From Synechococcus sp. SP2 MAG (GTDB lineage: Bacteria > Cyanobacteriota > Cyanobacteriia > PCC-6307 > Cyanobiaceae), in contig JAVBIX010000053.1 in assembly GCA_030756895.1 (NCBI GenBank), forward strand, positions 1 to 64,000: a stretch of DNA of 64,000 bases, given 5' to 3'. Of the stretch, positions 736-8,010 are shown piece after piece. The notes beneath the pieces were generated by a model, which worked only from the letters and a program-made list of their open reading frames with translations, had not been told where the DNA came from and searched no databases. The position numbers and the translations under genes are program-made. Positions within the stretch are counted from its first letter, which is position 1. The number at the start of each line of letters is the position of its first letter.

Positions 736-1275
736 TCACATCCGCCGCGTGACATTGGTACAGGAAAGAGCTGGCTCCACTTCATCATGAGGACGAGCAA
801 TGATGTGAGCAGCAACAAGGCCGTCTCCAACCCGTTCACAGGCATCAGCTCCTGCGCGCACGGCAGCATTCACAGCTCCGGTCTCTCCACGGACCATCAC
901 TGTGACGTATCCACCACCGACGTATTCACGACTGATCAGCTGCACCTCCGCAGCTTTCGTCATTGCATCGGCGGCCTCAATCGCAGGCACCATGCCTCGG
1001 GTCTCAATCATGCCAAGGGCAATACCGAATGCGCGCCTTGGAACAGGGCTTGAAGAAGCCTGAAGGGAAGACCCTTTTCCACTACCGCCACTTGTAGGTG
1101 TACCTCGAGAGCTGCTGCGAGCTGGAGAGCTGGCTATAGGAGCAGAAGCGCTCGTGACAGGCTTCACATCAACAGTCGCTTTTGCTGCTGCTGAGGTGGG
1201 GGTAGCGGCTTTGGTAGACGGTGTTGATGCAGCGGAGTCTGCGCTGGACCGACGACGGGGTGAAGGAGTGGCCAT
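736..1275 (-). CDS. csoS1E: BMC-domain carboxysome shell protein with long N-terminal extension (CsoS1E-like)
   Basis: The C-terminal ~90 aa (FGIALGMIETRGMVPAIEAADAMTKAAEVQLISREYVGGGYVTVMVRGETGAVNAAVRAGADACERVGDGLVAAHIIARPH) nearly matches CsoS1; preceded by ~80 aa of Ser/Ala/Thr/Pro-rich sequence. Confidence 0.88.
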   Translation of the reverse strand: MATPSPRRRSSADSAASTPSTKAATPTSAAAKATVDVKPVTSASAPIASSPARSSSRGTPTSGGSGKGSSLQASSSPVPRRAFGIALGMIETRGMVPAIEAADAMTKAAEVQLISREYVGGGYVTVMVRGETGAVNAAVRAGADACERVGDGLVAAHIIARPHDEVEPALSCTNVTRRM

Positions 1276-1859: not shown

Positions 1860-3659
1860 TCAGTGAGCCTCCTGAACAGCAGGATCGAGTGTGGACCCTA
1901 CAATTTCTGCAGGGGATGTTTGACTTCGATCCCGGATGGTTAAACAGGTATGAATTAAACCATCACGAACCAGGTTTGAGTATCGATCTGAAATAGCCGC
2001 ATTAACTCTCTGACAATCTGAGATAGCTCGTTCGCGCGCACCAGGAACGGAACTGGAGTAATCGAAACGGATCACAACAGGTATAGGCAGATCACGCGAA
2101 ACGTTTAAGCCCTTGAAAATTTTCACACCAACGTCCAAGTCTGGTGCGCCCTCTTCGACGGTATCTAGGTGGGCAAAATAAGTGAGATTTCGTAAATGGA
2201 CTTCTTTAAAACCGATTCCTACCCCAATAAAACGTTCTGCATGGCCCGCATCTGGATAAGGGCCACCATGAAGCTCAGATACATAATCAATCTGAGAAAT
2301 ATTGTTGGCCAATAAGCGAGTCATTAATGCCACCATTCCCGTATCCATCGCTCCCGGCGCACCAGATTCAACAGCTTCAGCAATCTGAATCAGCGCCTGA
2401 TCGGGAGACATCGTTGACGTTGCCTCATAAAGATCCTGAGCTGACACCCATCGATCTAACTGAGTTGAACTATCGCTTGCGGGTGGGTGAACCCTGATTG
2501 CATCAGTATCGGTATCGAGTCCAATCAACAACAGGTCAACGGAAGCACCGCAACAAAAGCTGTTTTCAACAGCCTGTCGAAAATCAAGAAGGCGCTGATA
2601 TCCAGCAGAGGCTGCCAATTTGTCATCACTTCCATGGGCAGCGCAGCCCTGATGGCTCGGATCCAAGGAGCTGAAGTGATAAGTCACGACCTTGAGGTAA
2701 CGGGTGTCTTGGCTGGCAGCATTAGGGAGGGACTCGCGATAACGCCGATGTTCCGTCTTGACCCATCTATTAACGGTATTTTCGACGTCAAACATGGCTC
2801 CGGCATGGGAGCGGCGACGCACTGAACTGAACGGAATCCGTAAGGCGTAGGCAATGGAATGAGCCAGCCGACCATCCGCACAAGGCGTCACATCGAGGAG
2901 ATGGAAACCGCAATCAAGAAGAAAACGCTCAAACGTCTTTGCCGCTTCACTCCCTGAAGAGGCCGCGAGAGGATCGTGCTGAAAAAAACAATCACTAAAA
3001 ACACGGTGCGACTCAAAAACACACCATGCGTAGAGCGCTCTCATATCCAAAGGACGGACCCAGGCACACTCAAGGATGTGCTTTGGCAAGTCAAATCCAA
3101 GCTCTCGACAAGCTAAAAGCTGTGCCTGATCAATAAAATCAGCATGATGTTGAAGCGCTGAAATCTTTTGAAGGACAGGAATAATCCTTTCGAAGCGCCC
3201 TTTAACTTCCAACTCGTAGACCCGTAAATGGTCATTAGCAACCTGATCAGTTAAAGGATGCAAGCGTTTAGAGACTGGACGGTTGGATGTTGAGCGGTTA
3301 GCAGAAGGGAGAGTCGTTCCTAACTGTCTCGAGCGATTCGAACTGCTCGATAGTGCACTGGACGACTTTTGATCCCTACGTACCCAGCCGGGTTGTTGCG
3401 GAACTGAACGCCTGCTGTCTTGACTTGTCCTGACGCGCCCGGCACCAAGGGTGCCTTGAGCCAAGACGGCTGCCTTTCCCGAAGTCGTGAGCGCTCTGCG
3501 TCTTTCAAGCGAGGCAGCACGGGCCGTAAGCGGATTGAGATCAGCTTGCTTGGGATCAGAGGAACCCGAAGACTCAGCACTCTCTTGTTGCAACTGACGT
3601 CGAGTAGGAGCGGTGGGGGAAAGAGGTCGCCCACCGCGGGAAGGCACAGAGCGGACCAT
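1860..3659 (-). CDS. csoSCA: Carboxysomal beta-type carbonic anhydrase CsoSCA (CsoS3)
   Basis: 599 aa between csoS2 and csoS4A; contains CADGR and DPSHQGCAAHGSDD zinc/active-site style motifs; disordered basic N-terminus. Confidence 0.95.
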   Translation of the reverse strand: MVRSVPSRGGRPLSPTAPTRRQLQQESAESSGSSDPKQADLNPLTARAASLERRRALTTSGKAAVLAQGTLGAGRVRTSQDSRRSVPQQPGWVRRDQKSSSALSSSSNRSRQLGTTLPSANRSTSNRPVSKRLHPLTDQVANDHLRVYELEVKGRFERIIPVLQKISALQHHADFIDQAQLLACRELGFDLPKHILECAWVRPLDMRALYAWCVFESHRVFSDCFFQHDPLAASSGSEAAKTFERFLLDCGFHLLDVTPCADGRLAHSIAYALRIPFSSVRRRSHAGAMFDVENTVNRWVKTEHRRYRESLPNAASQDTRYLKVVTYHFSSLDPSHQGCAAHGSDDKLAASAGYQRLLDFRQAVENSFCCGASVDLLLIGLDTDTDAIRVHPPASDSSTQLDRWVSAQDLYEATSTMSPDQALIQIAEAVESGAPGAMDTGMVALMTRLLANNISQIDYVSELHGGPYPDAGHAERFIGVGIGFKEVHLRNLTYFAHLDTVEEGAPDLDVGVKIFKGLNVSRDLPIPVVIRFDYSSSVPGARERAISDCQRVNAAISDRYSNLVRDGLIHTCLTIRDRSQTSPAEIVGSTLDPAVQEAH

Positions 3660-3666
3660 TAGTTGA

Positions 3667-6054
3667 TCAGCCTCGCGCTCCGCCTGAGACGGTAATCAGC
3701 GAACCCTTTGAAGTACTGCCACTGGAACCTGTGACACGACTTTCAGGCCATTCAGACTGCTCGTTGCGCTTTCGTTCGGAAGGGGGCATTCCCATCATTG
3801 ATCCCGAACGGCTGGGGTTACGACGACGAGCGGAGACGCCTTCGGTACCCGTCACATGTTCGCCCCGATCCCAGTCATCACCAGTAACTTTGGTGGAAGA
3901 GCCTTCACCTGTGACCCGAGAAGCAAGTTCTTGAGTAGCGACTACAACCTGAGGGGTGGTGGGTTGAAATTGACGTTGGTCTTGACGTTGGCTGTGACGC
4001 TCCTGAAATTCGCGATTATCAAATCGGAATTGCTCCGTGCCGGTGATTTTCCCACCGGCCAAATCAAAAGGGCCCGTAATACGGCTGCTGTCTTCGTAAG
4101 CGGTACCCGTAACGCCTTTGCTGGTGTCACGCTGTTGCTGCGCTGCACGGGCAGGAGAAACCACGCTGAATCGAGTCCAACTCGACCCTTCTGGTGATTG
4201 ACCATGCGTATCTGTCCCAAGGGGTGCCTCAGCACCACAAGCTGCTGAGAGCTGATCGGCACCGATATAAGGAGTACCGGTCACAGCTTCACAAGCGCCG
4301 CGTTCGCCACCTGTCATCACTCCTCCAATACCTGGTTGAAGGCCTGTCATCGGAGAAGAAGGGGTGCCGGGACGGACAGGCGTCCGTTCTCGAATCGCCT
4401 GAACAGCGGAGTTACCGCAGTATTGACCTGCTTGCTCAAGGCCTGCATAAGGGGTACCTGTTACTGCTTTGCAGCTTCCAGGTTCATCGCCCGTGACTTT
4501 TTCAGAGCGCCCTGTGCTGGTCCCACTCACAACTTGGTTGCGGTTAGTGATGCTGAATCCAACCTTCGCGGGTTCTGGCTCTGGCTTGGCTCCACAGAAC
4601 GAATTGACTTGTTCGGCACTGATGTACTGATTGCCAGTTACGCGCTTACAAGATCCAGGTTCATCGCCAGTCACACTCGATGAACGACCAAGCATCGTGC
4701 CGGTAACACCTGTTCCAGTAAGGGTTTCAGACAGGCCAACCTTCGCAGCTGGACGCCCTTCAGGAAGAGGATCAGATCCTAAATATTGATCACCAGTTAA
4801 AGAGCGGTTCGCACCGGCTTCATTACCAGTCACGCTGGAGGATCGCCCTACCATCACGCCGCTTACTGGGCGCCCTTGCTGCGTCAAGCTATGGCCAACT
4901 TTGCGTGGTGAAGGATTGGTACCACCGCAATACATGGCACTTTGGTTCGCCGAGATGTATTCGGTACCTGTCACGCTTTTACAAGTGCCGGGCTCATCAC
5001 CAGTCACTTTCTCCGAGCGACCAACCTCGTTGCCTGTGACCCGGTTGCCATGGGTTGTGGCAGACACACGAACCTTGGCGGGTGTGGTTGGCGTTGGAGC
5101 GCTCTGACAAAAAGTCTGAAAAACCTCAGCACCGAGATATTCAGTACCAGTAATCGAACGACACGTGCTGGCTTCGTTGCCCGTTGTCTTAACAGAGCGA
5201 TTCGCCTGAGTGCCAGTCACTGTCTGGCCTCCAGTGGTCTCTGACTCACCCACCTTCCAGTGAGCATCAGCGGAGGCAGCTTGCTTAGATCCGTTCCGGT
5301 TCGGGCCTGTTGGACGCGTTATTCCAGCGCTTTGCTTGCTACGAGCTCCGGACTTGGCGCGAAGCTCACGCACTTGCTGAGCCAACTCTCTGCTTGTGAG
5401 GTCAGGATTTGCCTGACGGGCTACTGCAGCAGCGCTTGTGGGTTGTTTACCCGCTGTTTTCCCATGTTTAGACATCGCTTCGCGACGGGCTAAAGCAAGT
5501 GAACGGCTTGGATTATCGATAGCACGACGCTTTGGAGCTTTGCTTCGGCGAGAGGAGTTTTTGGTGGAAAGATCGACAGATGCAGCCTGACGACTCAACC
5601 GAGTTGGTGTTAAAGCTGCATCATTACTTCCACAACCACAATCTTTCTTACTGACTGCAGGAACTGTTGTGGATGAGGTTTTCACTGTTTTACGAGCGAC
5701 ATCAGCACGATTTCTATCTTTGGTGGTATCAGCTGATTTGCCACGACGCGAAAGGGCTTCTCGGCGAACCATCACAAGCTCACGACTTGGTTGACTGACA
5801 GGTTTCACTCGAGAACGGTGAGCTGCTGACGAAGAGGTCAGTGATTGATGTCTTGGTCGCTCTACAGCGACAGGAGTTGCGGCATATGAAGGGGCTGCCG
5901 CGATTGGATCTGGGTTGGTTCGCGTCTTACGGGCATCATCGGCCGACCGAACACGATTGGCACCTGCTGAAACAGCAACGGATGCTTTTTTGCCAGCAGT
6001 AGTGAGAGCCTTACGGCGCTCGAGAGCTAGTTCGCGACTAGAAAGTCTTGCCAT
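3667..6054 (-). CDS. csoS2: Carboxysome assembly scaffold CsoS2
   Basis: 795 aa; four N-terminal SRELALERRKALTTAGK-type repeats, mid-region VTGDEPGSCK..VTGTEY repeats, C-terminal VTG repeats. Confidence 0.97.
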   Translation of the reverse strand: MARLSSRELALERRKALTTAGKKASVAVSAGANRVRSADDARKTRTNPDPIAAAPSYAATPVAVERPRHQSLTSSSAAHRSRVKPVSQPSRELVMVRREALSRRGKSADTTKDRNRADVARKTVKTSSTTVPAVSKKDCGCGSNDAALTPTRLSRQAASVDLSTKNSSRRSKAPKRRAIDNPSRSLALARREAMSKHGKTAGKQPTSAAAVARQANPDLTSRELAQQVRELRAKSGARSKQSAGITRPTGPNRNGSKQAASADAHWKVGESETTGGQTVTGTQANRSVKTTGNEASTCRSITGTEYLGAEVFQTFCQSAPTPTTPAKVRVSATTHGNRVTGNEVGRSEKVTGDEPGTCKSVTGTEYISANQSAMYCGGTNPSPRKVGHSLTQQGRPVSGVMVGRSSSVTGNEAGANRSLTGDQYLGSDPLPEGRPAAKVGLSETLTGTGVTGTMLGRSSSVTGDEPGSCKRVTGNQYISAEQVNSFCGAKPEPEPAKVGFSITNRNQVVSGTSTGRSEKVTGDEPGSCKAVTGTPYAGLEQAGQYCGNSAVQAIRERTPVRPGTPSSPMTGLQPGIGGVMTGGERGACEAVTGTPYIGADQLSAACGAEAPLGTDTHGQSPEGSSWTRFSVVSPARAAQQQRDTSKGVTGTAYEDSSRITGPFDLAGGKITGTEQFRFDNREFQERHSQRQDQRQFQPTTPQVVVATQELASRVTGEGSSTKVTGDDWDRGEHVTGTEGVSARRRNPSRSGSMMGMPPSERKRNEQSEWPESRVTGSSGSTSKGSLITVSGGARG

Positions 6055-6146: not shown

Positions 6147-6166
6147 CGAAGGATCAGCGTCCTTCG
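6147..6166 (-). promoter_or_regulatory. Hairpin spanning the cbbS stop codon
   Basis: cgaagga-tcagcg-tccttcg, 7-bp stem; the cbbS stop (TGA) lies in the loop. Confidence 0.5.
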
Positions 6167-6504
6167 AAAACCACGAAGCAGGAGCCTTGACCCTGGGTGT
6201 AGGCGTCGTAGCCAACGATGCGCACGTGATGATCGGGGTATGCGCGATGGCAAGCCTCGAGTTCACTTACAACAACGTTGAGATCCTTCTCACCGAAGAA
6301 GGGGAGCTTCCAATAAGACCAGTAGATGGCCATGGAATTGGAAGGATGGACGTGCTCAACGAGCGGGCTCCAACCTTGGGCAATGATGTAAGCGATCTGG
6401 TCATAGATCTCGTCCTGGGTCATCGGCGGAAGGAAGCCGAATGTCTCCAGGGTGGCGACTGTTTGGTAGTCACCCACGGTGCTCTGAAAAGGCATGGGGA
6501 TCAC
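6154..6504 (-). CDS. cbbS: RuBisCO small subunit (form IA)
   Basis: MPFQSTVGDYQTVATLETFGFLPPMTQDEIYDQIAYIIAQGWSPLVEHVHPSNSMAIYWSYWKLPFFGEKDLNVVVSELEACHRAYPDHHVRIVGYDAYTQGQGSCFVVFEGR; the real start may be M4 (6495). Confidence 0.97.
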   Translation of the reverse strand: MIPMPFQSTVGDYQTVATLETFGFLPPMTQDEIYDQIAYIIAQGWSPLVEHVHPSNSMAIYWSYWKLPFFGEKDLNVVVSELEACHRAYPDHHVRIVGYDAYTQGQGSCFVVFEGR

Positions 6505-6597: not shown

Positions 6598-8010
6598 TCA
6601 CTGAACGTCGAGCTTGTCGACGGTGTCGAACTCAAACTTGATCTCCTTCCAGGTCTCGAGAGCGATGGCCAGCTCAGGGCTGTGCTTACCGGCTTCCATA
6701 AGGATGTCGCGGCTTTCTTTCTCGATCTCACGACCGGCGTTGCGTGCCTTGACGCAGGCCTCGAGGGCCACGCGGTTGGCAGCAGCACCAGCTGCGGATC
6801 CCCAGGGGTGACCGTGGGTACCACCACCGAACTGGAGGACGGAGTCGTCTCCGAAGATGGCAACCAGTGCGGGCATGTGCCACACGTGGATACCGCCGGA
6901 AGCAACGGCGAACACACCAGGCATGGAACCCCAGTCCTGATCAAAGAAGTTGCCGCGGCTGCGATCTTCAGGAACGAAGGATTCACGAAGCTGGTCGATA
7001 TAGCCGAGGGTGGTCTGACGATCACCTTCCAGCTTGCCGACCACGGTGCCAGTGTGGAGTTGGTCACCACCTGACAAACGCAGACACTTGGCGAGAACGC
7101 GGAAGTGAATGCCGTGCTTGGGATGACGGTCAATCACAGCGTGCATGGCACGGTGAATGTGCAGCAACATGCCGTTCTTGCGGCACCACTTCGACAAACC
7201 GGTATTGGCTGTGAAGCCACCGGTAATGAAGTCGTGCATGATGATCGGCTGATTGAGTTCTTTAGCGAACTCAGCGCGCTCATACATCTCTTCAGGAGTG
7301 TTGGCAGTCACGTTGAGGTAGTGACCCTTCCGCTCGCCCGTTTCCTGTTCGGCAATCTTGATGGCTTCCGCAACGAATTCGAAGCGGTTCTGCCAGCGCT
7401 GGAAAGGCTGGGAGTTGATGTTCTCGTCATCTTTGGTGAAGTCCAGACCGCCACGAAGGCACTCATAGACAACACGGCCATAGTTCTTACCGCTCAAACC
7501 AAGCTTTGGCTTGATGGTGCAACCCAGAAGAGGGCGGCCGTACTTGTTCATCCGGTCACGCTCAACGGCAATGCCATTAGGCGGTCCAGCGCAACACTTG
7601 ATAAAAGCAATCGGGAAGCGAATGTCTTCCAGACGCAGGTGGCGCAGGGCTTTGAAGCCAAACACGTTGCCGACCAAGGAGGTCAGAACGTTGGTGATTG
7701 AACCCTCTTCGAACAGGTCGAGGGGGTAAGCGATGAAGGCATAGAAAGCCTCCTTGTCACCGGGGACGTCTTCGATGCGGTAGCAGCGTCCTTTGTAGAA
7801 GTCGAGATCGGTGAGGAGCTCGGACCACACAGTGGACCAGGTACCAGTTGAAGATTCAGCGGCAACAGCAGCTGCTACTTCTTCTTTCGGGACACCGTCT
7901 TGGCCAGTGCACTTGAAGCAGGCCAGCAGGTCAGTGTCTAGGGGAACGTAATCAGGAGTCCAGTAAGTGTCTCTGTACTCCTTGACGCCAGCGTCGTACT
8001 TCTTGCTCAT
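6598..8010 (-). CDS. cbbL: RuBisCO large subunit (form IA)
   Basis: 470 aa [33 protein letters not shown]...[19 protein letters not shown]...[36 protein letters not shown]. Confidence 0.99.

Follow-up and report, generated by a model that had tools for sequence, protein, structure and literature searches.

How the carbonic anhydrase CsoSCA is placed in the cyanobacterial alpha-carboxysome is open, because the peptide that docks it in H. neapolitanus is not conserved. In H. neapolitanus, CsoSCA cannot be encapsulated without its disordered N terminus, which binds Rubisco, and CsoSCA and CsoS2 occupy the same Rubisco pocket in a mutually exclusive manner (PMC10614612). We examined CsoSCA in a 64,000-nucleotide stretch of DNA (the window) from a Synechococcus genome whose closest sequenced relatives are marine Synechococcus (nearest named record L031, Synechococcus sp. 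AG-679-C18, genus group g1). A minus-strand alpha-carboxysome operon (cbbL, cbbS, csoS2, csoSCA, csoS4A, csoS4B and CsoS1) takes up the initial 8 kb of the window, and csoSCA thus has csoS2, cbbLS and csoS4A/B as operon partners, as expected of this gene (Table 1). The enzyme belongs to TIGR02701 (E 1.7e-202, residues 134-578, 673 bits against a cut-off of 241) and also matches PF08936 (E 1.1e-55) and PDB 8THM (E 1.6e-216, residues 133-591). Only 7 nt separate the csoS2 stop from the csoSCA start, a gap conserved in nearly all relatives read, and the folded enzyme is preceded by 133 residues that are mostly disordered by prediction, the TIGR02701 match beginning at residue 134. The CsoS1 shell protein of the operon (736-1275, minus strand) is extended at its N terminus by some 80 residues, among which S, A, T and P are abundant.

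Table 1. Coordinates in the window of csoSCA, its tail elements and neighbouring genes
Feature	Position	Strand	Evidence
csoSCA, carboxysomal beta-carbonic anhydrase, 599 aa	1860..3659	(-)	TIGR02701; PDB 8THM; start conserved in relatives
Conserved island QQPGWVRR, CsoSCA aa 88-95	3375..3398	(-)	conservation; kept in L122/L124 and L174
CsoSCA aa 44-84, CsoS2 repeat module of N1 type (helix + GRVRxxxDxR extension)	3408..3530	(-)	alignment, profiles, NF050159, dN/dS
Core motif RAASLERRRALTTSGK, aa 47-62, pattern RxxxxxRRxxxxxxGK	3474..3521	(-)	invariant residues; low-confidence AlphaFold helix
PTAPTRR, aa 15-21, motif of cyanobacterial CsoSCA and candidate for a second Rubisco hook	3597..3617	(-)	motif in PMC10614612
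csoS2, scaffold protein, 795 aa	3667..6054	(-)	NF050159 1264.8 bits, cut-off 1100
CsoS2 aa 4-43, repeat N1, to which the CsoSCA module is most closely related	5926..6045	(-)	N1 profile beats N2/N3
cbbS, Rubisco small subunit	6154..6495	(-)	Y96-equivalent residue kept
cbbL, form IA Rubisco large subunit	6598..8010	(-)	D99, S345, F346 kept; Y72 = F

An N1-type CsoS2 repeat in the tail of CsoSCA

A first-pass annotation of the window had proposed that residues 44-84 of CsoSCA form a CsoS2-type repeat, and alignment placed the segment at exactly these coordinates. The resemblance to repeat N1 of CsoS2 is genuine and far exceeds chance expectation: CsoSCA 44-84 and CsoS2 4-43 gave a local alignment score of 110, compared with a mean of 52.9 (sd 7.6) and a maximum of 92 in 3000 shuffled alignments, none of which reached 110. 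The two cores are identical at 13 of 21 residues, but their DNA at only 34 of 63 positions, and the same codon is used at 3 of the 13 common residues. Because DNA identity is low and the codons mostly differ, the likeness lies at the protein level. Motif spacing is conserved between the two proteins (R..(6)RR..(7)GK), and the R.R...D.R extension comes after a linker that is one residue longer in CsoSCA than in N1.

When the CsoSCA segment alone was run against the PDB with phmmer, the first match was to a Prochlorococcus CsoS2 but was only weak (8WXB, E 0.11), and profiles were therefore needed. To guard against circularity, CsoS2 of the two module-bearing genera was kept out of the N1, N2 and N3 profiles, which were built from other genera. 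Among the 1303 reading frames of the window, the N1 profile gave three matches in CsoS2, a single one in CsoSCA (E 1.7e-8) and none beyond these two proteins (next frame, E 1.4). Against the CsoSCA tail of the window it scored 34.1 bits, and against the best of approximately 3400 shuffled tails 11.7. The NCBIfam CsoS2 model NF050159 independently matched CsoSCA 45-130 (E 2.8e-6), and a genome-wide search, with a profile that includes the window's own repeats, found N-repeats in CsoS2 (three) and CsoSCA (one) and nowhere else. N1 outscored N2 and N3 in all 57 distinct motif-bearing CsoSCA tails. This preference arises because these tails also contain the non-helical R.R...D.R extension, which is found in N1 and the CsoSCA module and is missing from N2 and N3; as the first-pass annotation had noted, the match runs past the helix into a GA.RVR...D.R region.

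Like the N-terminal repeats of CsoS2 (N1-N4), the module has the RxxxxxRRxxxxxxGK core (CsoSCA 47-62), a disordered context and a place in the same operon, and with N1 it shares the extension. AlphaFold puts a helix at CsoSCA 46-59, but at low confidence (pLDDT about 45-55, compared with about 70 for the N1 helix at CsoS2 6-19). Unlike the CsoS2 repeats, the module is present as a single copy, in the tail of an enzyme and not in a scaffold, and it lacks both the K after GK and the acidic residue after the first R. An acidic residue follows the first basic residue of N-repeats ‘in all but one case’ (Cai et al. 2015). CsoSCA has A48 there and its relatives mostly S, Q or A, so we call the module N1-type by homology and not a textbook repeat throughout. 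Its helix differs from N1 steadily, with E to S/Q/A at the second residue, L to A at the third and K to A after GK, and Rubisco affinity may differ as a consequence.

Distribution, losses and selection

CsoSCA was found in 356 of the 400 genomes of the family that made up our search sample. In two genera of marine Synechococcus, 60 CsoSCA could be assessed and 57 of them carry the module (26 in g1 and 31 in g5), two further CsoSCA truncated at contig ends (G317 and G338) having been left out. We take these genera to match marine subcluster 5.1; records named Synechococcus within them are AG-679-C18, UW105, UW140, MU1642 and AG-670-F04. In a search with the module, matches with E <= 4.7e-13 in a CsoSCA-length frame came from 56 genomes, joined by a weaker one from G267 (5.6e-9), and CsoS2 matches in the same search start at 1.5e-11. 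The module was not found in CsoSCA of other genera, whose tails were read from more than 40 genera and searched by profile in the remaining genomes. Seven genomes gave additional weak matches, which trace to CsoS2 (repeats or fragments), to what is probably a signal peptide and to marginal similarity at chance level. Cyanobium-like genera have long CsoSCA tails, and a search of these for degenerate N-repeats gave none above shuffled sequence. By name, the motif was found in none of 49 loci labelled Prochlorococcus and in all 18 of the closest loci labelled Synechococcus (L031-L047 and L058).

On a quick tree of the enzyme minus its tail, presence and absence of the module require 3 changes, compared with 39 for shuffled labels, and the simplest history is that it was gained once and lost twice. 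The three complete g1/g5 CsoSCA without the helix are natural deletions. In one lineage (L122 and L124) the entire module is gone and PTAPTRRQLQQ is fused to PAWVRR, and in L174 the helix alone is deleted in frame, with the extension and QPGWVRR retained; L213, a close relative of L174, has the complete module. A profile search of the deletion genomes did not find the module relocated elsewhere. Because three genomes from two lineages have dropped the helix and yet retain csoSCA and PTAPTRR, the module is not essential everywhere.

Downstream of the module lies a second conserved island, QQPGWVRR, which persists where the module has been lost. The tails of L118 and L119 have a TSNRQ-type tandem repeat on the stretch that leads from the module to the enzyme domain, with approximately six units in L118 and only one or two in L119. 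In the CsoSCA tail of L155 (G267), PTAP is lost and RNGRPQAPSRRQLRQNQDRS occurs twice, once on each side of the module, which shows that motifs are shuffled in these CsoSCA tails.

The module is a strongly selected trait of marine Synechococcus CsoSCA. By the Nei-Gojobori method, the helix (dN/dS 0.047) and the extension (0.045) evolve in the window's clade much like the enzyme core (0.050), and the linker that joins PTAPTRRQLQ to the module stands at 0.84; synonymous sites are fairly diverged, so these values are to be taken as ranks. Two other clades gave 0.087 and 0.103 for the helix and 0.44 and 0.52 for the same linker. Among 49 distinct orthologues, R47, R53, R54, A56, L57, G61, K62 and A64 are invariant, as are R75 and R77 of the extension. 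The first-pass annotation had held that the similarity is constrained at the protein level and had made its reading depend on conservation among orthologues, and both expectations agree with the codon, dN/dS and lineage-wide data. Gene conversion between the module and the genome's own N1 was considered and rejected, as a genome's own N1 was no closer than those of others (permutation p 0.98).

Predicted docking on Rubisco and competing explanations

The identity, type, distribution and selection of the module can be read directly from these comparisons; its origin by duplication, Rubisco binding, binding site and role in encapsulation we infer from them. We consider it quite probable that a copy of the N1 module entered the CsoSCA tail in the ancestor of one group of marine Synechococcus and was retained as a Rubisco-docking motif. 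The CsoS2 module (helix plus GRVRxxxDxR, approximately 40 residues) would have been copied into the disordered tail of the adjoining gene, csoSCA, and purifying selection would maintain it for docking on Rubisco. Most likely it docks CsoSCA at the CsoS2 site, since the motif arginines are invariant and the Rubisco contact residues largely kept. In the source genome, CbbS Y96 and CbbL D99, S345 and F346 are retained, and CbbL Y72 is replaced by F, which is still aromatic. CsoSCA is a hexamer in relatives, and the helix of each protomer would lie across the CbbL2 dimer interface beside CbbS, which is the CsoS2-repeat site, with R54 stacked between CbbL F72 and CbbS Y96. By motif spacing, R10 would be the equivalent of this R54. 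In addition to the older PTAPxRR, the module would help to pull CsoSCA into the Rubisco–CsoS2 condensate.

Rubisco Y72 has been described as conserved in alpha-carboxysomes and is touched by both CsoS2 and CsoSCA. At the corresponding CbbL residue 71 the window has F, as do 173 of the 174 alpha-cyanobacterial CbbL read. A link between the module and this substitution was rejected, as F is found with or without the module. An F at this position should still permit stacking of an arginine, and it would make the hydroxyl contact of the H. neapolitanus CsoSCA peptide impossible.

A rival explanation gives the module a main partner other than Rubisco. A homologous N1 copy whose main partner is CsoS1 or CsoS1D shell proteins, or CsoS2, would place CsoSCA at the shell; a CsoS2 peptide array gave CsoS1, CsoS1D and Rubisco signals in the N-region (PMC4499774), and CsoS1A can bring H. 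neapolitanus CsoSCA into shells (PMC12646314). The solved function of N-repeats is nevertheless Rubisco binding (PDB 6UEW, PMC10614612), and the invariant positions of CsoSCA are the arginines of the Rubisco motif, which makes a shell partner quite unlikely. Common ancestry itself could be questioned on the ground of the low DNA identity to N1, and in H. neapolitanus an unrelated CsoSCA peptide has come to bind this very Rubisco site (PMC10614612), which indicates that new motifs can arise there under selection. That a short helix rich in arginine merely converged on N1 is nonetheless very hard to reconcile with a match that spans approximately 40 residues including the non-helical GRVRxxxDxR, with conserved spacing and an N1-specific fit in every distinct tail, and we regard it as highly improbable.

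Alternatively, it may be PTAPTRR that does the work of holding Rubisco, the N1-like module being redundant and its loss nearly harmless. PTAPx[R/K]R occurs in 87% of cyanobacterial CsoSCA sequences (PMC10614612), PTAPxRR-type motifs are present in nearly all alpha-cyanobacterial CsoSCA tails read, module-less ones included, and the natural deletions keep PTAPTRR. A dispensable segment would not be expected to hold dN/dS near 0.05 across the genus while the adjoining linker drifts, and we think this explanation unlikely. Under the docking that we favour, the retention of PTAPTRR alongside the module makes two hooks per tail plausible, and their coexistence suggests two Rubisco hooks in each tail. 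A more speculative extension, towards which we are on balance sceptical, is that the hexamer's tails, with PTAPxRR and the captured helix, make up to 12 contacts and that CsoSCA acts as a minor cross-linker of the condensate beside CsoS2. Competition between CsoSCA and CsoS2, which the first-pass annotation had raised, would follow if the Rubisco site is common to both; Rubisco sites have been argued to be in surplus over ligands (PMC10614612), and by that estimate competition may not limit CsoSCA in vivo.

Relation to known systems and significance

The core of this finding is not new, because the motif in CsoSCA has already been named: Blikstad et al. 2023 (PMC10614612) report RxxxxxRRxxxxxxGK in the N terminus of a few Prochlorococcus CsoSCA (‘a handful’) and suggest an evolutionary relationship. 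The first-pass annotation, whose repeat identity and constraint stand, had overlooked both this publication and PTAPxRR. The carriers found here have the same N-terminal pattern and, where they bear a name, are called Synechococcus, in contrast to those published; since no Prochlorococcus with the motif was found among 49 loci, the name given in the paper may be a matter of how strains were labelled or sampled. The passages searched in later papers and reviews contain no further treatment of the CsoS2 motif in CsoSCA. What is new is the distribution, the N1 identity, the selection, the natural deletions and the coexistence with PTAPxRR. The H. neapolitanus CsoSCA peptide (PRLDLIEQA, PDB 7SMK) resembles the module in lying in a disordered N terminus and in docking at the CsoS2 pocket, which is predicted here, and differs from it in sequence and in burying P22/R23, whereas the module would present an arginine helix on the surface.

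A lineage-wide, selected copy of the scaffold's Rubisco hook offers a direct hypothesis for the placement of CsoSCA in marine Synechococcus. The natural deletion strains provide controls, and the module would be a ready-made targeting tag for engineering. Cargo and scaffold would share one interaction code, as in algal pyrenoids.
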